Positions 1,326-63,554 of a stretch of 64,000 bases of DNA are shown here, one piece after another (position 1 is the stretch's first letter; every line of letters begins with the position of its first letter). The notes below the pieces were generated by a model, which saw nothing but the letters and a program-made list of their open reading frames with translations, had not been told where the DNA came from and ran no database searches. This DNA is from Marinifilum caeruleilacunae (GTDB taxonomy: Bacteria > Bacteroidota > Bacteroidia > Bacteroidales > Marinifilaceae), in contig NZ_RZNH01000001.1 of assembly GCF_013141825.1 (NCBI RefSeq), positions 124,001-188,000 on the forward strand. The letters are read 5' to 3'. The position numbers and the translations under genes were made by a program.

Positions 1326-2240
1326 ATGCAACTTTTCAAAACCATAACAGAATACTGCGATGCCATAGGAATTAAAGCTCCCAGGCACCCACATTTCGAT
1401 ATTCGTCGTTTTGAAGAAAATAGTGAGCATATTCGAACCAAAATGCTAGCCTTCCGCCATGAGTTCTACTTTATTGCTGTGCGGACCTATGGCGAAGGAA
1501 AAGTTCGTTCGGGTCATCATACGAAATTCCCCGAAGGCCTTACCATTTATTTTAATACCCCTTTTCAAATTCAATCCTGGGAGATTGATCAGGATTGGTC
1601 GGGATACTATCTCATTTTTTCGCAAGATTTTCTCAGCTCTTCTCATTATTTCGATAGAATTTTAGATGACTTCCCTTTTCTGAAAATGGATCAATCTTTG
1701 CCTTTTGAAATTGAGCAGGAAAATCTGCCTGATATTTTGAATATTTACGATAAAATTAAGAAGGAATATCTTAGCGATGATGAAGACAAGTTCAATTTTA
1801 TCGAAGTACATGTATTGGACTTGTTGAATCATATCAAAAGGCTTTACCGAAAACAATCGGATGGCAAAAGCATTCAGGAACAAATTCATCGAGCTGACTT
1901 ACAATTATTAAAACGATTCGAAGAATTGGTAAAAACTTGCTTTTGCTGCGAAACAAAAGCTGAAGTGTTGGCAAATCCGCACTCTCCTTCGGATTATGCA
2001 CAGCATTTAAACGTACACCCTAACCACTTGAATGCCGTGGTAAAATCGATCACAGGCCAAACTGCACTAAGCTACATTCACAATCACATTCAGAGACTGG
2101 CAAAGGCCGAATTGGCTCAAACCAATATTAGCGCAAAAGAACTTGCATACAAGCTTCACTTTAGCTCTCCTGCCAAATTCAGTGCTTTCTTTAAAAAACA
2201 TGCAGGACTTACTCCTCTTTCCTATCGTAAAAACAGTTGA
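1326..2240 (+). CDS. AraC-family transcriptional regulator (paralogue A)
   Basis: 304 residues: an N-terminal cupin-like sensing domain (about 1-190) and a C-terminal double HTH of the AraC/XylS type (about 210-304), ending in the usual FFKKHAGLTPLSYRK pattern. An upstream in-frame ATG at 1281 exists, but I chose 1326 because the protein then aligns from its first residue with the paralogue at 6231 (24 of the first 32 residues identical, both 304 aa). A TACTTTTG -7-like box lies only 4 nt before this ATG, so the leader would be very short if that box is used. The regulator is followed directly by a direct-repeat operator and promoter for the tautomerase operon, which it probably controls (inference). 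Confidence 0.85.
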   Translation: MQLFKTITEYCDAIGIKAPRHPHFDIRRFEENSEHIRTKMLAFRHEFYFIAVRTYGEGKVRSGHHTKFPEGLTIYFNTPFQIQSWEIDQDWSGYYLIFSQDFLSSSHYFDRILDDFPFLKMDQSLPFEIEQENLPDILNIYDKIKKEYLSDDEDKFNFIEVHVLDLLNHIKRLYRKQSDGKSIQEQIHRADLQLLKRFEELVKTCFCCETKAEVLANPHSPSDYAQHLNVHPNHLNAVVKSITGQTALSYIHNHIQRLAKAELAQTNISAKELAYKLHFSSPAKFSAFFKKHAGLTPLSYRKNS

Positions 2241-2242
2241 TC

Positions 2243-2306
2243 TTTGAAATTGGCAATTCTTCGTTTGAAATGGGAAATTTCATTCGCTTTTTAGCCATTA
2301 GCTTTG
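2243..2306 (+). promoter_or_regulatory. AraC-type direct-repeat operator and -7 box (promoter 1)
   Basis: TTTGAAAT occurs at 2243-2250 and again, identical, at 2264-2271: a 21-bp period, two helical turns, as in AraC-family sites. A Bacteroidota -7 box TAGCTTTG is at 2299-2306, 56 nt from the first repeat start. There is no good -33 element at the expected spacing, which fits an activator-dependent promoter. The same arrangement recurs at 7148 and 8602. Confidence 0.65.
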
Positions 2307-2402
2307 CATTGTAAAGATCATCAAACAATTCCAAGTGTATTGTACCAGTATCAAACAAGGGGTCATAATTTGACGAGGAATTGTAATTTTTTAGTTTTTA
2401 AC

Positions 2403-2414
2403 TTGTATGTACAA
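2403..2414. promoter_or_regulatory. Palindrome TTGTATGTACAA, candidate operator
   Basis: A near-perfect 12-bp palindrome 53 nt before the tautomerase start. The perfect version, TTGTATATACAA, occurs 37 nt before the SDR at 7296, and both are preceded by AC. Position in the leader and recurrence suggest a repressor site, perhaps for one of the local MarR/GbsR/HxlR proteins (inference). Confidence 0.4.
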
Positions 2415-2467
2415 CTGATGGTTAAAACTATAATACTTCAAAAAAATTGAATTTAAAATAGGAAGAA

Positions 2468-2668
2468 ATGCCAATAATTAACTTTAAAGGTGCGCACCTA
2501 AGCACCGAGCAAAAAAAAGAATTGATCCAAAAATTTACGGAAACAACAAAGGAAGTGACTCATTCGCCCGATCCATTCATCACGGTAATTATAGAAGAAT
2601 ACAGCGATGATAATTTGGGAGTTGGAGGAAAAACTGTGAGTGAAATCAAATCAGAATTAAAAAAATAA
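2468..2668 (+). CDS. 4-oxalocrotonate tautomerase-like protein
   Basis: 66 residues, the usual size of a 4-OT subunit. Met1 is followed by Pro2, which becomes the N-terminal catalytic proline (PIINFKGA) after Met removal. The helix LSTEQKKELIQKFTE and the later strand TVIIEEY fit the beta-alpha-beta fold. Members catalyse keto-enol tautomerisation on small oxo acids as hexamers or trimers; the substrate here is unknown. It is 4 nt upstream of an SDR-like gene, forming a two-gene operon under promoter 1 and the palindrome at 2403. Confidence 0.85.
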   Translation: MPIINFKGAHLSTEQKKELIQKFTETTKEVTHSPDPFITVIIEEYSDDNLGVGGKTVSEIKSELKK

Positions 2669-2672
2669 AGAG

Positions 2673-3266
2673 ATGAAAAAGCTTGTATTAGTTGGCTCAA
2701 CAGGAGTTATTGGAAAAAAAGTAAAAGAGTTGTTTGGTACAGACTATGAGGTAATCAGCGTAAACCGAACAAGCGGAGACTATCAATTAGATATGGCAGA
2801 TGCAGAAGCCGTAGAAAGTATGTTCAAAGAAATTGGAGGTTTTGATGCACTAATTTCTACCAGTGGATATGGCAAATGGGCAAGCATTGATGAGCACAGC
2901 ATTCAGGATTTCCACGATGGTTTAAACAGCAAATTAATGGGACAAGTAAACCTGGTAATGATTGGAAGAAAATATGCCAATGCAGGTGCCAGCTTTGCAG
3001 TTTCGACTGGTATTTTGGCACAGTACCCGGTTGAAGGAGGTTTGTCCTTAGGAATGATTAATGCTGGATTAGAAGCATTTGTACGTGGTGCGGCTCTTGA
3101 AATGAAAGAGATGAATATTAATGCCGTGAGTCCTTCTTTTGCAAAAGAAACCATGGAATTAATGGGTATGGATTCAACTTCAGGAGTACCTGCAATTGAG
3201 TTTGCAAAATTATACAAGGAAGCCATTGAATCTGGGAAATCGGGTGAGGTTTATCATGTTTCGTAA
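2673..3266 (+). CDS. Short SDR-like NAD(P)-binding protein
   Basis: 197 residues with an N-terminal Rossmann glycine motif (GSTGVIGK, residues 8-15). It belongs to the small atypical SDRs of about 200 residues, in which the classical YxxxK catalytic pair is not visible; the segment GGLSLGMINAGLEAF occupies that place. Its reaction is therefore uncertain. It starts 4 nt after the tautomerase gene and surely shares its message. A hairpin about 40 nt downstream probably ends the operon. Confidence 0.8.
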   Translation: MKKLVLVGSTGVIGKKVKELFGTDYEVISVNRTSGDYQLDMADAEAVESMFKEIGGFDALISTSGYGKWASIDEHSIQDFHDGLNSKLMGQVNLVMIGRKYANAGASFAVSTGILAQYPVEGGLSLGMINAGLEAFVRGAALEMKEMNINAVSPSFAKETMELMGMDSTSGVPAIEFAKLYKEAIESGKSGEVYHVS

Positions 3267-3305
3267 GTGATATAGATCTTTAAAACAGACTGTTTGATTT
3301 TGGAA

Positions 3306-3337
3306 AGTGGGGAATTTTGACTACGCCCCACTCTCTT
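3306..3337 (+). terminator. Probable terminator after tautomerase/SDR operon
   Basis: A perfect 7-bp GC-rich stem (AGTGGGG at 3306-3312, CCCCACT at 3326-3332) with a 13-nt loop is followed by the T-rich CTCTTT. Confidence 0.6.
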
Positions 3338-3431
3338 TAATACAAAACAAAAGTTTGATTCAATTCCAAGTTAAATTATTTCACTTCCAACCTTTAAATT
3401 TTCGAATAATCATTCACAAAAGAATGTAATC

Positions 3432-4313
3432 ATGAACATCAATTTAAATGCTTACAAAGAGCAGATTGATTTACATCAAAAATTCACTCCAAATCTCAAT
3501 AATAATTCACTTGATGAATTGTTAACTACATTAATTGAAGAGCCCAGTGGGATGTCATTGTTAAGCCAACTCGATTTAATAAATGGGAATTATTCTCAAA
3601 GAGATTTGATCAGGGCATTGTTAACAGTAAGACCATCGGGAAATTTACCAGACTCCCTGGTTGGATTAGTAGATTCAATGCTTCAAGATGAATTAAAGCA
3701 CAAAAACATCACCAATCATCAGGATATTCCTCGAATTACAAGCGATAATCCTGCCAGTAAATCTATTAGTGTTTGGGATGGTGATATTTCAACATTGAAA
3801 ATAGATGCCATTGTAAATGCTGCCAATAAGCAGATGGAAGGTTGTTTTGTTCCATTTCACAACTGCATTGACAATGTAATTCATAACGCTGCCGGAGTGA
3901 TGCTGAGAGAAGATTGTGCAACAGTAATGAACTTACAGGGAGAATTGGAACAAACTGGTAAGGCCAAAATCACCAGAGGATACAATTTACCAGCCCAATA
4001 TGTTTTACATACCGTAGGTCCTATTATTCGCGGTGCTCGACCTAATCTCCTTGATGCAAAGAAATTGGCAAACTCTTATGAATCTTGCCTGAATTTGGCC
4101 AAAGAATACGGACACATTAAATCCATTGCCTTCTGCAGCATTTCCACCGGAGTTTTCGGATATCCGCTTGAAGATGCAGCAAAAATTGCACTATCAACGG
4201 TTACCGATTGGTTACAAAATAATCCTAACAGCATAGAACACATTGTATTTAACACCTTTGGACAGAGTGCAACAGATACATACATGAACTTATTAAAAGA
4301 TTGGAGGGAATAG
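3432..4313 (+). CDS. Zinc-dependent macrodomain ADP-ribosyl hydrolase
   Basis: 293 residues: a helical N-terminal extension (about 1-105) and a macrodomain (about 106-293). The ADP-ribose-binding core shows GDIS at 117-120 and NAANKQMEGC at 129-138. The motif GCFVPFHNCIDN places Cys138, His143 and Cys145, which fits the metal ligands of the zinc-dependent macrodomain class found next to class-M sirtuins. Such enzymes remove mono-ADP-ribose from proteins. The gene is separated by one nucleotide from a SirTM-type gene, so writer and eraser are probably translated together. Family assignment is strong. The target is unknown, because the usual GcvH-like and lipoate-ligase neighbours are absent here. 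Confidence 0.85.
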   Translation: MNINLNAYKEQIDLHQKFTPNLNNNSLDELLTTLIEEPSGMSLLSQLDLINGNYSQRDLIRALLTVRPSGNLPDSLVGLVDSMLQDELKHKNITNHQDIPRITSDNPASKSISVWDGDISTLKIDAIVNAANKQMEGCFVPFHNCIDNVIHNAAGVMLREDCATVMNLQGELEQTGKAKITRGYNLPAQYVLHTVGPIIRGARPNLLDAKKLANSYESCLNLAKEYGHIKSIAFCSISTGVFGYPLEDAAKIALSTVTDWLQNNPNSIEHIVFNTFGQSATDTYMNLLKDWRE

Positions 4314-4314
4314 A

Positions 4315-5142
4315 ATGAATATCGAGAAAGCAATTCAAGCCATATCTTCGGCAGATGCAATATTAATTGGGGCCGGAGCGGGCATGTCAGTTCCGGCTGG
4401 TATTGATTTAATGGATCAGGAAAGTTTTGCCAAGAACTATCCTGCTATGCTTCAATATGGATTTACTTTTGGATACCAACTTATGGGTTATCCTTATCAG
4501 GACGACAGATTGAGATGGGGTTATTTGTCGACAAGTTTGAACAACATGCTTCAACTAGGTAAGGATAAATCCTATCAAAACTTACTACAATTGGTCAAAG
4601 ACAAAGAGTATTTTGTATTAACTACAAACATTGACAGACTCTTTCATAAAAATGATTTTCCCGAAGATAAAATTTATACACCTCAAGGGGATACATTTTA
4701 CTTTCAATGCAAATTACCTTGCACAGATGAAGTATGGGATGCTCGGGAGCAAATTCAGGAAATGGCAAAAAATGTTGATCCTAAAACTCAATATTTAACA
4801 AATGAAGATTTAATTCCACGATGCCCTAACTGCGGAGGTGAAGTGTATATGAATGTTAGAAGTGGAGGTTTTTTCATTGATGATCCATATGAACAAGGTG
4901 CAAAGAATCTCAATAATTGGTTAAAAAAGAACAGTCATAAAAAACTACTTTTTCTTGAGATTGGTGTAGGTTATAATACACCAGGGGTTATTCGCTACCC
5001 TTTTGAGAACATGTACAATCAATTGCAAGATGCTGATTTTATTCGAATCAATGCTGATTATTCGGATGTTCCTGAAGGAGGTATCGGTTTAAAAATGGAT
5101 ATAGAATCAGCTTTGGATTATTTCTTAAGTAATCAGGAATAA
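4315..5142 (+). CDS. Class-M sirtuin (SirTM), protein ADP-ribosyltransferase-like
   Basis: 275 residues of the Sir2 family. NAD-binding motif GAGAGMS at 19-25, TNID at 104-107 (Asn105, Asp107), and a four-cysteine zinc ribbon at Cys132, Cys136, Cys170 and Cys173 (CPNC). Where deacetylase sirtuins carry the catalytic His, this protein reads TPQGD with Gln124. That is the SirTM signature, a class described as mono-ADP-ribosylating and not deacetylating. The start ATG overlaps the end of a GGAGGG-containing stretch that lies inside the macrodomain gene. The usual GcvH-L and LplA2 partners are missing around it. Confidence 0.85.
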   Translation: MNIEKAIQAISSADAILIGAGAGMSVPAGIDLMDQESFAKNYPAMLQYGFTFGYQLMGYPYQDDRLRWGYLSTSLNNMLQLGKDKSYQNLLQLVKDKEYFVLTTNIDRLFHKNDFPEDKIYTPQGDTFYFQCKLPCTDEVWDAREQIQEMAKNVDPKTQYLTNEDLIPRCPNCGGEVYMNVRSGGFFIDDPYEQGAKNLNNWLKKNSHKKLLFLEIGVGYNTPGVIRYPFENMYNQLQDADFIRINADYSDVPEGGIGLKMDIESALDYFLSNQE

Positions 5143-5179
5143 AATGTAGGCCCAATAGCTTCTTGTAAATTTTAATCAA

Positions 5180-5614
5180 GTGAGTAAACTATCCAAAATA
5201 TCGCGGGAATGTTGCCTGTACTTTACAGCCAATTCCTTTGTCCGAATCATAAGTGAAATGGCAGATGAAGAATTCAGATTTATTGGTTTGGCTCCCTCCT
5301 ATGCATATCTAATGTTATTGGTGGTTGATCAACCCGGATCAAGTCAAAATGAATTGAGTAAAAAAATGAATCTAAAATCTTCAACACTCACTCGATTTTT
5401 TGATAAGTTGGTGCAACGAGGCTTGGTGGAAAGGATTCAAAACGGACGTGAAATAAACATTTACGCCACCGATAAAGGGCATAAAACAAGAGTTTTAATT
5501 GACTCAGCATTAAACAACTTGCACAAAAAGTATAGCCTGGTTCTTGGTGAGAATTTTGCAACAAAGCTTACTGCAGATATCAATAAGGCTACAAATTTCA
5601 TGAATGGTGAGTAA
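5180..5614 (+). CDS. MarR-family transcriptional regulator
   Basis: 144 residues with a central winged HTH: the helix LSKKMNLKSSTLTRFFDKL is followed by the wing GLVERIQNGREINIYATDKG. It starts at GTG 5180; there is no upstream ATG in frame. The start codon lies in an imperfect CTTG...CAAG inverted repeat (about 5171-5181), which might allow autoregulation (inference). N-terminal cysteines (ECC) could make it redox-sensitive, but that is not shown by sequence alone. It follows the SirTM pair by 37 nt and precedes a second regulator. Confidence 0.8.
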   Translation: MSKLSKISRECCLYFTANSFVRIISEMADEEFRFIGLAPSYAYLMLLVVDQPGSSQNELSKKMNLKSSTLTRFFDKLVQRGLVERIQNGREINIYATDKGHKTRVLIDSALNNLHKKYSLVLGENFATKLTADINKATNFMNGE

Positions 5615-5639
5615 TACATGTCAATATTGATAGACTCTA

Positions 5640-5655
5640 TACTTTGTACCAAATA
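5640..5655. promoter_or_regulatory. Imperfect palindrome before GbsR-like gene
   Basis: TACTTTGTACCAAATA matches its own reverse complement at 12 of 16 positions and lies 22 nt before the start at 5678, where an autoregulatory site would be expected. It also resembles a -7 box with one base of odd spacing. Confidence 0.3.
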
Positions 5656-5677
5656 CTTATTTATTGAATAAAAAAGA

Positions 5678-6157
5678 ATGAATCATCAAAAAAATCTCGA
5701 AAGCAAAAAGCAATTGATTGTTGAAGAGTACGGAGCATTCCTGGAAAAACATGAAAAGCTAGCGCCTGTTGCAGCCAGAATAGTATCCTTATTGCTGATA
5801 GACAATAAAAATGCTCTAACTTTTGATGAACTGCGTCACTCCCTGCATGCGAGTAAAAGTACTGTATCAACCAATTTAAAGCACTTAGAAGATGCTGGTT
5901 TTGTGGAGTATTTCACCAAATCATGCGATCGAAAAAGGCATTTTCAATTGTCTAAAAGTGCTTGCAAAAACAGACAGGATGAGATGCTAAAATTATTTCA
6001 AGCAGAATTAAGCATCTTAAAAAAAATCATCGATTATAAATCTGAAATCAATCAGTTTTCTGATTCTTCAAAACAAAATCACCTCAAGGGCAATGAGGTT
6101 CAGTATTCAGAGTATTTGACAGATCTGATTGAGTTTTTAAGTCAGCACGAATATTAA
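5678..6157 (+). CDS. GbsR/MarR-type transcriptional regulator
   Basis: 159 residues. The N-terminus (IVEEYGAFLEKHEKLAPVAARIVSLLL) matches the opening of GbsR-type MarR proteins. An HTH follows (FDELRHSLHASKSTVSTNLKHLEDAGFVEYF), then a helical dimerisation tail. GbsR proteins are dimeric, effector-responsive repressors; the ligand cannot be predicted. It lies between another MarR gene and an AraC gene, so three regulators follow each other in 2 kb. Confidence 0.8.
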   Translation: MNHQKNLESKKQLIVEEYGAFLEKHEKLAPVAARIVSLLLIDNKNALTFDELRHSLHASKSTVSTNLKHLEDAGFVEYFTKSCDRKRHFQLSKSACKNRQDEMLKLFQAELSILKKIIDYKSEINQFSDSSKQNHLKGNEVQYSEYLTDLIEFLSQHEY

Positions 6158-6230
6158 AAAGATCTGGAATTGTTGTGGTAGCATCCATGTATATTTAGGC
6201 ATTTTGTATATTTGAGGAAAATCAAATGAT

Positions 6231-7145
6231 ATGCACCACTTCAAAACCATTAGCGAATATTGCAAGGCCATAGGAATTTCCAATCCAAAACACCCGCATT
6301 TCGATATTCGCAGTTTTGAAGAAAATATGGGAAAGGTGGTGTCGCAAATGCCTCCTTTTCGTCATGAATTCTACTCCATTGCCATAAAAGCTAATGGTGG
6401 CGGAAAAGCAATAACGGGGCATCATACCGATTTTCCTGAAGGGGTGACCATCTTTTTCAACTCTCCTTTTCAAATCCTTTCCTGGGATATTGTTCCCGAT
6501 TGGTCGGGATATTACATCATGATTTCACAGGATTTTCTGGCATCATCACATCACTTCGACAGACTTTTGGAAGATTTTCCATTCCTAAAAATTGACGAAT
6601 CCATTCCATTTGAGATCAACCAGAACGAATTGCCTGAAATTCTGCGCATTTTTAAAAGAATCCAGGAAGAATATCAAAGTGAAAATGATGATAAGTTTGC
6701 TTTTATCCATTCTTACCTGATTTTATTGCTGAACCAGGTTAAAAGATTGTTCACTAAACAAGTTGATGCAAAAACAGCCAGTGAACAATTTCGATCGGCC
6801 GATTTAAAACTTTTATCTCGTTTTCAGAAATTGGTTAAAATTAGCTTCTATCCCGATGCCAAAACCGAAACCTTTGCCAACCTGCATTCTCCTACTTATT
6901 ATGCACAAGTATTGAGTGTACATCCCAACCATTTAAATGCAGTGGTAAAGTCGATTACAGGCAAAACAGCACTAAACCACATTCATCATCATATTCTTAA
7001 ACTGGCCAAAGCCGAACTGCTTCAAACCACAGCCAGCGTTAAAGAAATTGCCTACTCTTTGCATTTCGAATCGCCTAATAACTTTAGCGCATTTTTCAAA
7101 AAAAATACGGGTGTAACCCCTCTATCCTACCGCAAAAACCAATAA
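6231..7145 (+). CDS. AraC-family transcriptional regulator (paralogue B)
   Basis: 304 residues with the same layout as the regulator at 1326: cupin-like N-terminus and C-terminal AraC double HTH ending FFKKNTGVTPLSYRK. The two proteins are clearly paralogues along the whole length. A -7-like box TATATTTG lies at 6207-6214, 16 nt before the ATG. As with paralogue A, the stop codon is followed within 3 nt by a TTTGAAAT direct repeat and promoter for the next gene, which points to a duplicated regulator-plus-target unit. Confidence 0.85.
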   Translation: MHHFKTISEYCKAIGISNPKHPHFDIRSFEENMGKVVSQMPPFRHEFYSIAIKANGGGKAITGHHTDFPEGVTIFFNSPFQILSWDIVPDWSGYYIMISQDFLASSHHFDRLLEDFPFLKIDESIPFEINQNELPEILRIFKRIQEEYQSENDDKFAFIHSYLILLLNQVKRLFTKQVDAKTASEQFRSADLKLLSRFQKLVKISFYPDAKTETFANLHSPTYYAQVLSVHPNHLNAVVKSITGKTALNHIHHHILKLAKAELLQTTASVKEIAYSLHFESPNNFSAFFKKNTGVTPLSYRKNQ

Positions 7146-7147
7146 TC

Positions 7148-7211
7148 TTTGAAATTTATACTTCTTGCTTTATAATTAAAAAGCCTCTACACTCCTAACT
7201 CCTTAGTTTTG
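7148..7211 (+). promoter_or_regulatory. AraC-type direct-repeat operator and -7 box (promoter 2)
   Basis: TTTGAAAT at 7148-7155 and TTTATAAT (6 of 8) at 7169-7176 have a 21-bp period. The -7 box TAGTTTTG at 7204-7211 starts exactly 56 nt after the first repeat start, as in promoter 1. A 22-bp stretch from 7146 is identical to 8600-8621 in promoter 3. Confidence 0.65.
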
Positions 7212-7246
7212 CTATACCAATTCGATATACAAATATTTCTTAATAC

Positions 7247-7258
7247 TTGTATATACAA
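7247..7258. promoter_or_regulatory. Perfect palindrome TTGTATATACAA, candidate operator
   Basis: A perfect 12-bp palindrome 37 nt before the SDR start. The related TTGTATGTACAA is at 2403-2414 in the leader of the other regulator-linked operon. Confidence 0.4.
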
Positions 7259-7295
7259 TTAAAGAGTCAGTATCGTATTAATTAAAGAATAAAAA

Positions 7296-8129
7296 ATGGA
7301 GAAAAAAGTTTGGTTCATCACCGGAGCATCATCTGGTTTTGGAAAAGCATTAGCAGAATATGGCATCCAACAAGGACATCAGGTAATTATTAGCGCACGC
7401 CGCATCGAAATCTTAAAAAGCATAAAAGAGCTTGCACCCAATCAGGTTGAGGCCATTCAAATGGATGTAAACCAGAAGGAACAAATCGAAAGTGCACTGA
7501 ATTTAACGATTAAAAAGTTTGGTCGAGTTGATGTTTTATTTAACAATGCAGGATATGGAATGGTAGGAGCCATTGAAGAAACATCCTTAGAAGATTTACG
7601 TGCCCAGTTTGAAACCAATTTCTTTGGTGCTGTCCAGGTAATTCAAAGCTTTCTGCCTCAATTTCGCAAACAGAAAAGTGGCACCATTGTGAACATTAGC
7701 AGTAGCGTTGGACAATTTTCTATGCCTGGTTTTGGCCCCTATTCGGCTTCTAAGTTTGCATTGGAAGGAATATCTGAAGCCCTGGCAGGAGAAATGGCAG
7801 CCTTTGGCGTGAGAGTTTTAATTGTTGAGCCAGGTGCCTTTCATACAGGTTTTGCTGGTAGTGCATTTAAACATACACCAGTAATGGAGGAATATCACGA
7901 CAGTGTAGGCGGAGTAAGAGAGTTTGTGAAAAATGCTGCTGAGCAAGGCGTAGGAAGCGATCCTAATAAATTGCCTTTTGCAATCGATCAGGCATTACAA
8001 AGTGAGAATATGCCCTTGCGCCTACAATTGGGCGAGGATGCAGTTGAAACAGTTCGCGCTCATTCCATTCAACTTTTAGAAGATATGAAAGAATGGGAAG
8101 ATGTTTCCAAAAATGTAAAATTCGATTAA
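7296..8129 (+). CDS. Short-chain dehydrogenase/reductase (SDR)
   Basis: 277 residues, a classical SDR. TGASSGFG is at residues 9-16, NNAG at 84-87, the catalytic Ser is in NISSS near 138, and the pair is Tyr149-x3-Lys153. After the core there is a C-terminal extension (VGSDPNKLPFAI...) seen in SDRs annotated as oxidoreductases of about 280 residues. The substrate is unknown. It sits behind promoter 2 and a perfect palindrome and is followed after 11 nt by a lipoprotein gene, probably on the same message. Confidence 0.87.
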   Translation: MEKKVWFITGASSGFGKALAEYGIQQGHQVIISARRIEILKSIKELAPNQVEAIQMDVNQKEQIESALNLTIKKFGRVDVLFNNAGYGMVGAIEETSLEDLRAQFETNFFGAVQVIQSFLPQFRKQKSGTIVNISSSVGQFSMPGFGPYSASKFALEGISEALAGEMAAFGVRVLIVEPGAFHTGFAGSAFKHTPVMEEYHDSVGGVREFVKNAAEQGVGSDPNKLPFAIDQALQSENMPLRLQLGEDAVETVRAHSIQLLEDMKEWEDVSKNVKFD

Positions 8130-8140
8130 AACAATCTACG

Positions 8141-8566
8141 ATGAGAACAAATTATTTATGGATACTACTGGCCATTCTTTTTATGGCCTGCAGTAGTACA
8201 GACGAGGAAATCGAAAATACCGATAATCCAAATAGCAACACAGAAGAAACAGATATTCCGGTAGCTATTCTGGCCTATCAGACCGGGGCAAACAGCGAAG
8301 ATATCGACACTTATATGGATGCTTTCGCCGATAGCATTTCCATACTGGATGTAAATCGCGAAATAAGCGGAAGAGATAATGTTAGAACATGGGCCTTGAA
8401 TGAAGTAATCCCAAACGGAGAAACATTTCAACATAGAAGAATACTGGAACAAAGTGATGGATATGCAAAAACCGAAGTAAACTGGTTAAGTTGGGTGGTT
8501 CACTACTACTATTGGTGGGATGAGAATAACAAAATTACACGAATGTCACTGCAATATGCAAACTAA
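8141..8566 (+). CDS. NTF2-fold (SnoaL-like) lipoprotein
   Basis: 141 residues. A longer frame opens at 8093 inside the SDR gene, but the ATG at 8141 gives a proper lipoprotein signal peptide (LLAILFMAC, cysteine near residue 17). An acidic linker (STDEEIENTDN) follows, then a small domain with NTF2-like character (DIDTYMDAFADSISILDV, GRDNVRTWA, and the final strand pair). NTF2-fold proteins bind or isomerise small hydrophobic molecules. The acidic tail after the cysteine may direct surface exposure in Bacteroidota. It is the first of four NTF2-like proteins in a row. Confidence 0.7.
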   Translation: MRTNYLWILLAILFMACSSTDEEIENTDNPNSNTEETDIPVAILAYQTGANSEDIDTYMDAFADSISILDVNREISGRDNVRTWALNEVIPNGETFQHRRILEQSDGYAKTEVNWLSWVVHYYYWWDENNKITRMSLQYAN

Positions 8567-8601
8567 GTAAATGCAGAAAATCAGGACCAAATTTAAAAAT
8601 C

Positions 8602-8665
8602 TTTGAAATTTATACTTCTTGATGTGAAATGATAAATCAGGTAACTTATAAAGTCAGGATCTTTG
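8602..8665 (+). promoter_or_regulatory. AraC-type direct-repeat operator and -7 box (promoter 3)
   Basis: TTTGAAAT at 8602-8609 and TGTGAAAT (7 of 8) at 8623-8630 have a 21-bp period. The -7-like box GATCTTTG at 8658-8665 again begins 56 nt after the first repeat. The palindrome TTGTA-A-TACAA at 8663-8673 overlaps the expected transcription start. The gene at 8690 would have a leader of about 20 nt. Confidence 0.6.
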
Positions 8666-8689: not shown

Positions 8690-9199
8690 ATGAGAACATT
8701 AGCTATAATACTATTGAGTATGATTTCGATAACAGTAAATGCGCAAAATATGAAAGATATTAATGAAACTGTATCGCAACTGTTTGTTGCCAGCGATAAC
8801 AGGGAATGGAAAATGGTTGAGGAAATTTTTGCCGACCAGGTGGAATTGGATTACTCAAGTATGAACGGAAATCCGGCTGTTGTTTTGAGTCCTAAGCAAA
8901 TCACCGATAGCTGGAAAACCATCCTTCCGGGATTTACCAGCACACATCATCAGTTGGGAAATTTTATTAGCCATGTAAGTGCTAACACAGCAGAGGTTTT
9001 CTGTTATGGCACGGCTACGCATTATTTAGAACATCAGGCTGGTAACATATGGACTGTTGTTGGATCTTACAATCTCGAACTTCAACAAAAAGATGGAAAA
9101 TGGAGAGTTTCTAAAATGAAATTCAACTTCAAGTACCAGGATGGAAATACACAATTGCCACAGGCTGCAATGGATAAAGTAAAAGAATCAAATCAATAA
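8690..9199 (+). CDS. Secreted NTF2-fold (SnoaL-like) protein
   Basis: 169 residues. A cleavable signal peptide (residues 1-19, ending VNAQ) is followed by a SnoaL_4-type NTF2-like domain: NETVSQLFVASDNREWKMVEEIFADQVELDYSS, then TDSWKTILPGFTSTHHQLGNF and the C-terminal strands. Proteins of this family are small-molecule isomerases, cyclases or binding proteins. The paired His (THHQLGNF) lies where SnoaL-like proteins have polar pocket residues. It opens a tight operon with the genes at 9202, 9577 and 10127. Confidence 0.75.
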   Translation: MRTLAIILLSMISITVNAQNMKDINETVSQLFVASDNREWKMVEEIFADQVELDYSSMNGNPAVVLSPKQITDSWKTILPGFTSTHHQLGNFISHVSANTAEVFCYGTATHYLEHQAGNIWTVVGSYNLELQQKDGKWRVSKMKFNFKYQDGNTQLPQAAMDKVKESNQ

Positions 9200-9201
9200 A
9201 A

Positions 9202-9564
9202 ATGACAAGAAAGTATCAAAAGACAGATGCATTATCGGAAGCTTTAGACAGCAAAAATCTTGAAAAGGTATTGGAGTTTATTAGCGAAGATTGCGTCTTA
9301 ATCGCCGGAAACGGAGAAGCTGTTCGTGGCAAAGAGAATATTGGAAAAGTTTTCGAAGGATTCTTCCCTGCCGTGAAATCAACAAAGCATGATGTAACTG
9401 ATATTTTTGAATCGGGAGAATCATTGGTTCACCGCGGAATGGTTACTTATACCCGACTGGATGATTCGCAACTCACTATCCCATTTTGCGATGTTTTTAA
9501 AATGAAGGACGATTTGATACGCGAATACTACATCTATATCGATTGGTCAGAATTATTTAATTAA
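9202..9564 (+). CDS. Cytoplasmic NTF2-fold (SnoaL-like) protein
   Basis: 120 residues, no signal peptide. The pattern LSEALDSKNLEKVLEFISEDCVL, then GKENIGKVFEGFFPAV, then strands with RGMVTYTRLDDSQLTIPFCDVFKMKDDLIREYYIYIDW is a typical NTF2-like domain. It begins 2 nt after the preceding gene's stop, which makes translational coupling likely. Its cytoplasmic location separates it from its three exported NTF2-like neighbours. Function unknown. Confidence 0.75.
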   Translation: MTRKYQKTDALSEALDSKNLEKVLEFISEDCVLIAGNGEAVRGKENIGKVFEGFFPAVKSTKHDVTDIFESGESLVHRGMVTYTRLDDSQLTIPFCDVFKMKDDLIREYYIYIDWSELFN

Positions 9565-9576
9565 AAACGAAATACA

Positions 9577-10110
9577 ATGAAGCGAATATTAATGGCTCTG
9601 CTTTGTGCAGCTGTGGTTTTATCGGCCTGCAAGAATGAAAAAGTAACACAACTGGAGCAAATTACTAAAGAAATAGAAATGAAATCGGAAATCGCAGAAA
9701 GAAACAAAGCCAATACCCTTGCTTTTCTTAAAGCACTGGAAGAGATGAATACAGATGCCGTAGTAAACCTATTTGCCGAAGATGGCGTTCACATTAATCC
9801 TTACGCATCAGGTTTATTTCCGGAAGGCACCAAAGGAAAAGAAGGCGTAAGAGCTTATTGGGAACCCGTATTTCCAAATTTTGAGAAAATGGAATTTCCT
9901 GTTGAAGAGATTTATAGCATGAATGAAGCAGCCATGACCTTTGTGAAGTTTAAGGGCAAAATCAAATTAAAAAACGATGCTGGCTGGTACAAGAACGATT
10001 ACTATGCAACATTTAAATTCAACGAAGAGGGAAAAATTACTGAATATGTAGAAATCTTTAATCCAATTGTGGCAGCAAAAGGATTCGGATTACTGGATCA
10101 GATAAAATAA
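9577..10110 (+). CDS. NTF2-fold (SnoaL-like) lipoprotein
   Basis: 177 residues. A lipoprotein signal peptide ends in LSAC (cysteine at residue 18). A short helical linker comes next, then an NTF2-like domain (NTLAFLKALEEMNTDAVVNLFAEDGVHINPYASG, then GKEGVRAYWEPVFPNFEKMEF and C-terminal strands including YATFKFNEEGKITEYVEIFNP). It is 12 nt downstream of the cytoplasmic homologue. Substrate unknown. Confidence 0.75.
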   Translation: MKRILMALLCAAVVLSACKNEKVTQLEQITKEIEMKSEIAERNKANTLAFLKALEEMNTDAVVNLFAEDGVHINPYASGLFPEGTKGKEGVRAYWEPVFPNFEKMEFPVEEIYSMNEAAMTFVKFKGKIKLKNDAGWYKNDYYATFKFNEEGKITEYVEIFNPIVAAKGFGLLDQIK

Positions 10111-10126
10111 TTAAAAATCAACAAAA

Positions 10127-10432
10127 GTGAAAAGCTTTGTAGTTATTGTTGACATTATTTCAAAAAAGGACAAAGTTGACTTTGCAAAAGAAGCCTTGTT
10201 GAGCTTACTGGACGTAACTCGTGCTGAACAAGGGTGTGTAGTGTTCGATTTGCATCAGGATAAAGAAAATCCTGCCCATTTTTTCTTCTATGAAGTTTGG
10301 GAAACAAAAGAATTGTGGGAAGCCCATATGAACACAGCTTACTTTACTGCTTACAAGGAAAAAACAGCAGACGTTTTTGCTGAAATCAGCTTTAATGTAA
10401 TGACCAAAATAGACATGGAAACAAGTTGTTAG
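10127..10432 (+). CDS. Antibiotic biosynthesis monooxygenase (ABM)-type protein
   Basis: 101 residues starting at GTG 10127. It shows the ABM pattern: VVIVDIISKKDKVDFAKEALLSLL, then TRAEQGCVVFDLHQDKENPAHFFFYEVWETKELWEAHMNTAYF. Such proteins are dimeric cofactor-free or quinol monooxygenases of small aromatic substrates (YgiN/ActVA-Orf6 type). It is the last gene of the NTF2 operon (16 nt gap). A second ABM protein is encoded at 61324, also beside an SDR. Confidence 0.8.
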   Translation: MKSFVVIVDIISKKDKVDFAKEALLSLLDVTRAEQGCVVFDLHQDKENPAHFFFYEVWETKELWEAHMNTAYFTAYKEKTADVFAEISFNVMTKIDMETSC

Positions 10433-10485
10433 GATGTCAATTTATGGACAAGAAATTTCGGTTTACAGGATAAAAATCAAGCAAC

Positions 10486-11439
10486 ATGAAAAAATTATTA
10501 GTCGCATTATCACTGCTGATCAGTGTATCGGTAGTAGCACAAAAGAACATCGCAATGGAAAAAGTAAATTTTAAAAGCCAGGGAGTACAATTAACAGGTG
10601 ATATTTTTTACCCTGCAAATTACGATCAAGCCAGTCAATATCCGGCAATTATCGTTACCGGTGCATGGACAACCGTAAAGGAGCAAATGCCAATGCTTTA
10701 CGCAAAAAAACTAGCCGGGAAAGGTTTCATTACCATGGTATTCGATTTTAGAGGTTGGGGAGAATCTGAAGGAGATAATCGTTACCTGGAAGATCCTATT
10801 CGCAAGACTGAAGATATTGTTGCCGCAGCCGAATATTTAAAAAGTCGTTCGGATGTAGCAACAGATGAATTAGGTGGTTTAGGTGTTTGTGCAAGCTCGG
10901 GATATATGATTAAGGCTTATACTGAAAATGCATTTAATTCAGTTGCCATTGTAGCACCATGGTTGCACAACGAAGAAATTGCAACCCCTGTTTATGGTGG
11001 CGAAGAATCGGTAAAAAGCCTAATTGCTGCTGGCGATAAAGCACAAAAAGAATTTGAATCTACCGGTAAATTGCAAATTATTACAGCCGCAAGTACTACC
11101 GACAAGAATTCATTAATGTACCAGGCACCTTATTACACCGAAGAAGACAGAGGTTTAATACCAGAATTCGATAATAAATTTAACCTGGCTTCGTGGAGAC
11201 CCTGGTTGACTTTTGATGCCATTCAGTATGCCGATAAAATTCCGGGTAAAGTATTATTTGTTGAGTCAGAATCAATTGCCTTACCTCAGGGAAGTAAAGC
11301 CTTTAAGGCAATTGCTGGTAACAAAGTAGTATCGGTGAACTTACCGGGTGTTACTCAATTCGATTTTTACGACCAGGCAGAACCTGTAGAAAAGTCGGTA
11401 AACAGCGTAGCAGCCTTTATGAAAAAAGAGTTAAAGTAA
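10486..11439 (+). CDS. Secreted alpha/beta hydrolase-fold protein (dienelactone-hydrolase-like)
   Basis: 317 residues. Signal peptide 1-18 (VVAQ), then an alpha/beta-hydrolase core: YPAIIVTGAWTTVKEQMPMLYAKKLAGKGF, FDFRGWGESEG, and a nucleophile elbow reading LGVCASSGY. The elbow carries Cys where lipases have Ser, as in dienelactone-hydrolase relatives. At the end, where the catalytic His is normally found before a FDFYD-like stretch, the residue is Gln (GVTQFDFYDQ). The homologue at 11737 shows the same Cys and Gln. Activity is therefore uncertain. It is 53 nt after the ABM gene and may belong to the same transcript. Confidence 0.8.
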   Translation: MKKLLVALSLLISVSVVAQKNIAMEKVNFKSQGVQLTGDIFYPANYDQASQYPAIIVTGAWTTVKEQMPMLYAKKLAGKGFITMVFDFRGWGESEGDNRYLEDPIRKTEDIVAAAEYLKSRSDVATDELGGLGVCASSGYMIKAYTENAFNSVAIVAPWLHNEEIATPVYGGEESVKSLIAAGDKAQKEFESTGKLQIITAASTTDKNSLMYQAPYYTEEDRGLIPEFDNKFNLASWRPWLTFDAIQYADKIPGKVLFVESESIALPQGSKAFKAIAGNKVVSVNLPGVTQFDFYDQAEPVEKSVNSVAAFMKKELK

Positions 11440-62693: not shown

Positions 62694-63554
62694 TTAGAGT
62701 TTTTCCCGATATTGCGAAGGAGTACAACCTACATGTTTTCTGAATAATCTGGTAAAATAAGTTGGGTAATCAAAACCAAGAGCATGAGCCACCTCTGAAA
62801 TGGATTTATCCATATTTTTCAATTGATTTTTCGCTTCGGATATGATTTTTTCGTGTATCAGTTCAAGAGCGGTTTTCCCGGTATTGTACTTTATCAGATC
62901 ACTAAAATAATTGGATGACAAATGTAGGTTATCTGCAAAATAATTTACCGAAGGCAGCTGTTTCGGATGTTCTAAATAATAGTTGTTCAGTTCCTTTTTA
63001 AACGCTACCACAATCTTATTATACAAAGGTTCACGTGTTTTAAATTGTCGTTCGTAACACTTTTGTACGTAGGTTAAAAACAGATTGCAGTATGCCATTA
63101 ACAAATCCATCGAATAATCATCCTTCTGATATTCATTGTATACTTGTTCAAATAAAGTTTCAATGCGCAATTGCTCATTCTCTGTTAAGAACAGAGCTTC
63201 CCTTATTTCATAATTAAAGAAGCTGAATCCAATCTGATTTTCTTGCAACAACAAAGGTGAAATCAAGATATGATATCCACTCCAAGGCGAATCAACATTC
63301 CAATGAAAAGCCTGGTTTGCCTGAATAAGATACATGAATCCTGATTTGGTATCGAACTCTGTATTTCCAAACCAATGCAAATCGGTCACGTTTCGCTTGA
63401 AAGCCATCAGGTAAAAATCAGATGTAATTTCGGGAGAAGAAAGGCGCAGATTTTTATGATCTTCGTACCTCACCACATCAATTAAATCTTTTTTGGGTGT
63501 TCCCAAATTGCAATATTGGTTGTAATCTTTAATTGTATCGAAATGTCTGCTCAT
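62694..63554 (-). CDS. AraC-family transcriptional regulator
   Basis: 286 residues. N-terminal cupin-like domain and a C-terminal AraC double HTH (NYFADNLHLSSNYFSDLIKYNTGKTALELIHEKIISEAKNQLKNMDKSISEVAHALGFDYPTYFTRLFRKHVGCTPSQYREKL). It is not a close relative of the two paralogues at 1326 and 6231. It lies between two SDR genes on the same strand and is the natural candidate regulator of the SDR/ABM operon. Confidence 0.87.
   Translation of the reverse strand: MSRHFDTIKDYNQYCNLGTPKKDLIDVVRYEDHKNLRLSSPEITSDFYLMAFKRNVTDLHWFGNTEFDTKSGFMYLIQANQAFHWNVDSPWSGYHILISPLLLQENQIGFSFFNYEIREALFLTENEQLRIETLFEQVYNEYQKDDYSMDLLMAYCNLFLTYVQKCYERQFKTREPLYNKIVVAFKKELNNYYLEHPKQLPSVNYFADNLHLSSNYFSDLIKYNTGKTALELIHEKIISEAKNQLKNMDKSISEVAHALGFDYPTYFTRLFRKHVGCTPSQYREKL

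Follow-up and report, generated by a model that had tools for sequence, protein, structure and literature searches.

The window analysed here, a 64,000-nucleotide stretch of the 5.27-Mb genome of Marinifilum caeruleilacunae (G000), carries three promoters preceded by a tandem direct repeat with a period of 21 bp, and we propose that these repeats are the operators of two paralogous AraC-family activators, AraC1 and AraC2, which would control two distinct regulons in a class II arrangement. We assign this scheme as a whole a probability of about 0.8. The argument is comparative and draws on the motif, its spacing, its usual place at the araC stop codon, the existence of two operator types and their association with recognition helix 6 and with the class of target genes; from these features we infer binding, activation, the assignment of helices to boxes and the involvement of a signal.

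A tandem repeat at three promoters

The original prediction described an 8-bp box (TTTGAAAT) repeated at 2243/2264, 7148/7169 and 8602/8623. The repeat is present at all three places, with second copies matching TTTGAAAT at 8, 6 and 7 of 8 positions, respectively, and a -7-like box starts exactly 56 nt after each first box, as had been claimed. The repeat proved longer than first described, i.e. a 38-bp tandem of ~17-bp half-sites, each composed of an A box common to all (CTTTGAAAT) and a B box that varies. A direct repeat of this type, with a period of ~21 bp and with A and B boxes, has the form of a class II AraC/XylS operator. Class II designates activation by tandem monomers located next to a promoter that lacks an upstream element.

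The claim that the repeat exceeds chance holds for the longer motif but not for the plain 8-bp repeat. Allowing for up to 3 mismatches, the latter has 14 matches in the window versus 9.2 expected, and 8 of 100 shuffles reach 14; this search was dropped as evidence because its match count is near chance. The longer motif occurs at six places in the genome within 3 mismatches, the three of the window at 0 and the other three at 3, and the reversed-pattern control at two places. We also built a weight matrix from 17 sites chosen by eye in other genomes, including the close relative Marinifilum breve and with none from the window. This held-out matrix finds exactly the three sites in the window, with scores of 41.3 bits for operator 3, 38.4 for operator 2 and 37.2 for operator 1, while 1 Mb of simulated sequence, scanned in both orientations, reaches at most 13.3 bits. 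Promoters 2 and 3 share an identical stretch, as predicted, but it is 24 bp long (7144-7167 and 8598-8621) rather than 22; a search with 23 bp of it gave two matches at 0 mismatches, and none in 100 shuffles. The three-promoter repeat is genuine and greatly exceeds what chance would produce.

A matrix scan of the collected loci yielded 49 sites. Seven were removed before the register count, namely a phase-shifted duplicate, a chance match, L151 3912 for want of a -7 box, and four sites from sister genomes that are near-identical. The 42 sites that remained include the three of the window. In 35 of these 42, the -7 box has its TTTG at register 56, and in four at register 57; three sites lack TTTG. 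As the -7 box lies outside the matrix, its position is an independent result. With register 56 or 57 in 39/42 sites, the proximal half-site adjoins the core promoter at a constant distance, as in class II operators. The -7 box mostly reads [TG]AnnTTTG, the first position being G in 12/35 sites, and 19 bp of unconserved sequence separate it from the second half-site. Over the 35 sites, mean pairwise identities are 0.76 and 0.66 for the half-sites, 0.31 for the spacer and 0.75 for the -7 box; using the matrix to find the half-sites and selecting the sites for TTTG inflates the values for both elements but not that of the spacer. Spacing is thus fixed although the spacer sequence varies. Bacteroidota promoters comprise -33 and -7 elements. 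As to the predicted absence of a -33 element, TTTG is found at -33-like spacing in 2/35 sites, a count that covers predicted operator promoters only, with no constitutive set compared. Where a site lies 5' of a SnoaL gene, the start codon (from a simple open reading frame caller) in many cases follows the start of the -7 box by 23-40 nt, a distance expected for a promoter. The corresponding distances in the window are 169 nt for the tautomerase gene, 92 nt for the SDR gene and 32 nt for operon 3.

Protein searches identified 17 loci with AraC2 relatives in named genomes, the closest relative in this collection being that of M. breve (91% identity). For AraC1, four other genomes encode relatives of 71-79% identity, and the relative in G015 reaches 62%. 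At E 1e-60, matches were found in 4/393 sampled genomes of the order and 4/395 of the phylum, own genome counted and with at most five candidates scored per genome; with four genomes matched in each sample, the AraC2-type gene looks rare and patchy. Conservation at related loci had been set beforehand as one part of the test of the prediction, and both the repeat and its exact spacing next to the -7 box are kept in relatives, distant ones included. Two of the promoters directly follow the paralogous araC genes, in agreement with the prediction. More generally, of the 35 rows for related regulators, counted with duplicates, 26 show a site no further than 170 bp from the stop codon and nine do not; in 23 of those 26 rows, the site is between -3 and +8 nt from this codon.

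Two operator types and their proposed regulators

The B boxes distinguish two types of operators. Those of promoter 1 (GGCAATTC/GGGAAATT) have GG in both half-sites (type A, consensus GGnAAT), and the first half-site of promoters 2 and 3 harbours the B box TATACTTC (type B). Both types were found again in other genomes. For six of the seven type A sites, the genes that follow are the tautomerase and/or its partner SDR; the seventh (L055 1164) precedes a different SDR gene, and no type A site is followed by a SnoaL gene. Similarly, 26 of the 28 type B sites precede a SnoaL, lipoprotein or SDR gene homologous to those in operons 2 and 3; the remaining two, L052 9549 and L055 7314, precede other genes, and a tautomerase operon never follows a type B site. 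These counts include the window sites and near-identical sister sites, without the phase-shifted duplicate. Neither type label was given by the script to 11 of 47 rows.

AraC1 and AraC2 are 63% identical, and both harbour a C-terminal double helix-turn-helix (HTH_18/HTH_AraC) scoring above the curated cut-off. Pfam reveals no N-terminal domain in the two regulators. The N-terminal ligand/dimerization domain was recognized by fold only, in AraC2, from its similarity to the RhaR and AraC regulatory domains, with template modelling (TM) scores to the target of 0.60-0.70. The structure model of AraC2, with a mean predicted local distance difference test score of 87.3, combines this RhaR/AraC-type regulatory domain with a MarA-type DNA-binding domain and matches AraC-family structures; ToxT, Rns and CsvR come on top of the whole-protein matches, with TM scores of only ~0.3. 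With residues mapped onto MarA, the recognition helices of the model are at 232-243 and 282-293. The first recognition helix, HPNHLNAVVKSITG, is identical in the two proteins, as is the A box, and the second differs at residues 283-284 (NN in AraC2, AK in AraC1), as does the B box. In 23/23 non-redundant pairs, base 12 of the site is A with N or S at residue 284 and G with K or H; this comparison covers the first half-site only, and seven of 30 regulators had no site to pair.

The type A pattern was detected in 4/20 genomes, all with an AK or VK regulator, i.e. in 4/5 genomes with and 0/15 without such a regulator. As those four sites served to define the pattern, they match it by construction, and the information lies in the absences. 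The type B pattern, also written from known sites, was detected in 15/20 genomes; it misses four genomes where only H-type regulators were found, as well as G809, whose site is more mismatched.

In XylS, helix 3 reads the A box and helix 6 the B box, and the XylS/Pm repeats have a period of 21 and a class II place. By analogy, two monomers of AraC1 or AraC2 would bind in tandem on the 21-bp direct repeat; helix 3 (HPNHLNAVVKSITG) would recognize the A box, and residues 283-284 of helix 6 the B box. The predicted proximal half-site ends 19 bp 5' of a TAnnTTTG-like -7 box devoid of a -33 element, and because that element is missing, RNA polymerase probably needs the activator, as in class II systems. 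AraC1 most likely drives the tautomerase/SDR operon and AraC2 the SDR/lipoprotein and SnoaL/ABM/hydrolase operons, in response to what would be some small-molecule signal. Our guess is that the targets (tautomerase, SDR, SnoaL/NTF2-like, ABM and alpha/beta hydrolase proteins) handle small organic molecules. A 637-residue protein encoded at L070 11041-12954, after a related operator, joins the SnoaL_4, SnoaL_2 and alpha/beta hydrolase domains, which operon 3 of the window encodes in distinct genes; such a fusion suggests a joint function.

Table. Predicted operators, promoter elements and associated genes in the window
Feature	Position	Strand	Description
AraC1	1326..2240	+	AraC-family regulator, 304 residues, second helix-turn-helix SPAKF; Pfam HTH_18 E 4.7e-18
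Operator 1, type A	2242..2279	+	CTTTGAAAT TGGCAATTC TTC GTTTGAAAT GGGAAATT; predicted; begins 2 nt past AraC1 stop codon
-7 box, promoter 1	2299..2306	+	TAGCTTTG; register 56 from first TTTGAAAT
Target operon 1	2468..3266	+	Tautomerase (2468-2668; Pfam Tautomerase 4e-12), SDR-like (2673-3266; adh_short_C2 3.1e-10)
AraC2	6231..7145	+	AraC-family regulator, 304 residues, second helix-turn-helix SPNNF; Pfam HTH_18 E 9.8e-20
Operator 2, type B	7147..7184	+	CTTTGAAAT TTATACTTC TTG CTTTATAAT TAAAAAGC; predicted; begins 2 nt past AraC2 stop codon
-7 box, promoter 2	7204..7211	+	TAGTTTTG
Target operon 2	7296..8566	+	SDR (7296-8129; Pfam adh_short 1.4e-51), lipoprotein-like protein (8141-8566)
Operator 3, type B	8601..8638	+	CTTTGAAAT TTATACTTC TTG ATGTGAAAT GATAAATC; predicted; without adjoining araC gene
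-7 box, promoter 3	8658..8665	+	GATCTTTG; 5/6 consensus positions
Target operon 3	8690..11439	+	SnoaL_4, SnoaL_2, SnoaL lipoprotein-like, ABM, alpha/beta hydrolase; by Pfam

The lipoprotein-like protein of operon 2 has no Pfam match, and its label comes from an inspection of its N-terminus by eye. Between the two AraC units, positions 3432-5142 code for a macro-domain protein (Pfam E 2.9e-35) directly followed by a 275-residue protein that appears sirtuin-like by eye and has no Pfam match. Two dissimilar MarR-family regulators are encoded in tandem at 5180-6157, directly 5' of AraC2. Further AraC-family genes are densely clustered at 62703-63548 (- strand) and, past the window, at 192-205 kb of contig C1; the HTH_18 matches of this cluster are at 186.7, 192.8, 196.1, 200.0, 202.0 and 205.0 kb.

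Alternative explanations and published systems

The original prediction placed the three promoters in a single regulon. In such a case both paralogues would bind all three operators, with a dominant A box and B-box differences that reflect drift, which would agree with the A box common to all sites, with the identity of helix 3 in AraC1 and AraC2 and with the proximity of their genes. We nevertheless consider this unlikely, given that the B box of promoter 1 differs from those of promoters 2 and 3, and that the B-box types reappear in other genomes together with the matching regulator type. Because the operator types split by B box and by target class, two paralogue-specific regulons probably provide a better fit to these comparisons, and the single-regulon reading was rejected on this split. 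The sites might also be those of a repressor or of another regulator, such as one of the MarR proteins whose two genes lie between the araC genes, and might adjoin araC by coincidence; a protein bound near -33 could equally block the polymerase. This is very improbable, as the sites usually adjoin the araC stop codon across genomes, 21-bp direct repeats are a published form of AraC/XylS operators, and TTTG at -33-like spacing is so infrequent. We give hardly any credence to the idea that the repeats are functionless remnants of a common araC 3' end or of a recent duplication: the 24 bp shared by promoters 2 and 3 and the two sites abutting paralogous genes would be accounted for, but spacers have diverged where half-sites and spacing have not, and SnoaL homologues are preceded by sites on contigs without a related araC gene (G807:C111 = L144 and G808:C101 = L149).

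Several observations weigh against the two-regulon, class II scheme itself. TTTG is missing at L153 4111, L141 6989 and L154 5591, in addition to L151 3912, which was removed before the count. Seven of 30 non-redundant regulators, a set obtained by removing five of the 35 rows as duplicates or partial, lack any site up to 170 bp from the stop codon. Type B half-sites differ from each other in their B box, G015 yields no type A match at up to 3 mismatches despite its AK regulator, and the second half-site of L063 lacks the G expected for the H residue of its regulator. The 23/23 agreement between residue 284 and base 12 rests on two changes in the tree, and an independent-pairs test (p 0.5) is unable to reach significance; because the tree needs only these two changes, the code linking residue 284 of helix 6 to the B box is suggestive, not proven.

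Similar arrangements have been described elsewhere. The Pm promoter of the Pseudomonas TOL plasmid is reported to harbour two 15-bp direct repeats, each made of an A box on the 5' side and a B box on the 3' side, contacted by helices 3 and 6 of XylS (PMC5481539), like the tandem half-sites described here. Unlike in the window, where a Bacteroidota -7 box is present, the boxes of Pm are TGCA and GGTA and the promoter has -10/-35 elements used with sigma 32/38. For the AraC-type hybrid two-component regulators of Bacteroides thetaiotaomicron, the sections covered report predicted direct repeats at an average distance of 21 bp, with motif similarity generally tracking regulator similarity, and make no mention of a fixed distance to a -7 box (PMC3878776); unlike AraC1 and AraC2, these proteins are fused to membrane sensor kinases and serve polysaccharide loci. 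For Bacteroides RhaR, an AraC-family regulator of rhamnose genes and not of genes such as those found here, 21-bp direct repeats were likewise predicted, with motifs described as unique to each group (PMC3870299). Since 21-bp repeats are published for both the hybrid regulators and RhaR, the window sites add a further case to a known arrangement of Bacteroides AraC proteins. A limited search of the open-access literature showed, among the matches listed, no report of a fixed -7 register across AraC types, of a paralogue-specific B box or of this gene set, all of which may still be published; PMC11501099 has no bearing on these points.

The same layout beside other AraC genes

The layout recurs in the same genome at other AraC genes, only ~30% identical, with repeats of quite different sequence. 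We analysed period and offset in a grid covering 541 kb that surround HTH_18 genes in three genomes, namely 34 of 36 such neighbourhoods in G000 (all but those of the two focal genes), 40 regions of G807 covering at least 43 of its 105 HTH_18 domains, and 20 of the 36 neighbourhoods of G016; AraC-type domains are numerous in Bacteroidota, as these totals illustrate. Counted irrespective of their location relative to genes, 15 matches were found at period 21 and offset 55-59, versus 0-2 for each of 17 other periods at the same offset (mean 0.65). Control DNA (295 kb) gave none at period 21 and 0-2 at other periods in this offset range; the AraC gene at 62.7 kb of the window falls both in the AraC set (L016) and in the control stretch made of the rest of the window. 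The proportions of period-21 matches with an offset of 55-59 are 6/9 in G000, where the layout was first noticed, and 7/9 and 2/3 in the replicates G807 and G016, respectively. In G016 taken alone, period 21 fails to stand out, with a total of 3 versus 3 and 4 for periods 15 and 16, which weighs against the scheme.

At L017 3199 (+), L023 2589 (-) and L024 1294 (+), a different AraC gene has its own 21-bp repeat, TCAGTAATTCGTATAC, located 5' of the araC gene itself, and this repeat is also present in two genomes of the same genus, with a -7 box at about the same register; it is possible that this araC gene is autoregulated. Repeats starting with GACCTTTTT or similar sequences show the same layout near AraC-type genes in three genomes (L196 2693, L264 2806, L213 4483 and L238 3616) and perhaps represent a second widespread operator class.

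To our knowledge, few operators of Bacteroidota AraC-type regulators have been identified. We lean slightly towards the view that Bacteroidota AraC activators in general use a 21-bp tandem half-site that begins 55-59 nt 5' of a TAnnTTTG box unaccompanied by a -33 element, together with a readable specificity code between helix 6 and the operator. If so, the operator of an uncharacterized AraC regulator could be read directly from the sequence beside its gene, and, given such a constant distance between operator and promoter, operators could be found simply by searching sequences. Natural sets of paralogues that differ in their operators within a single genome, such as the three of M. breve (L055) and the three of G801, are ready pairs for tests of DNA recognition.

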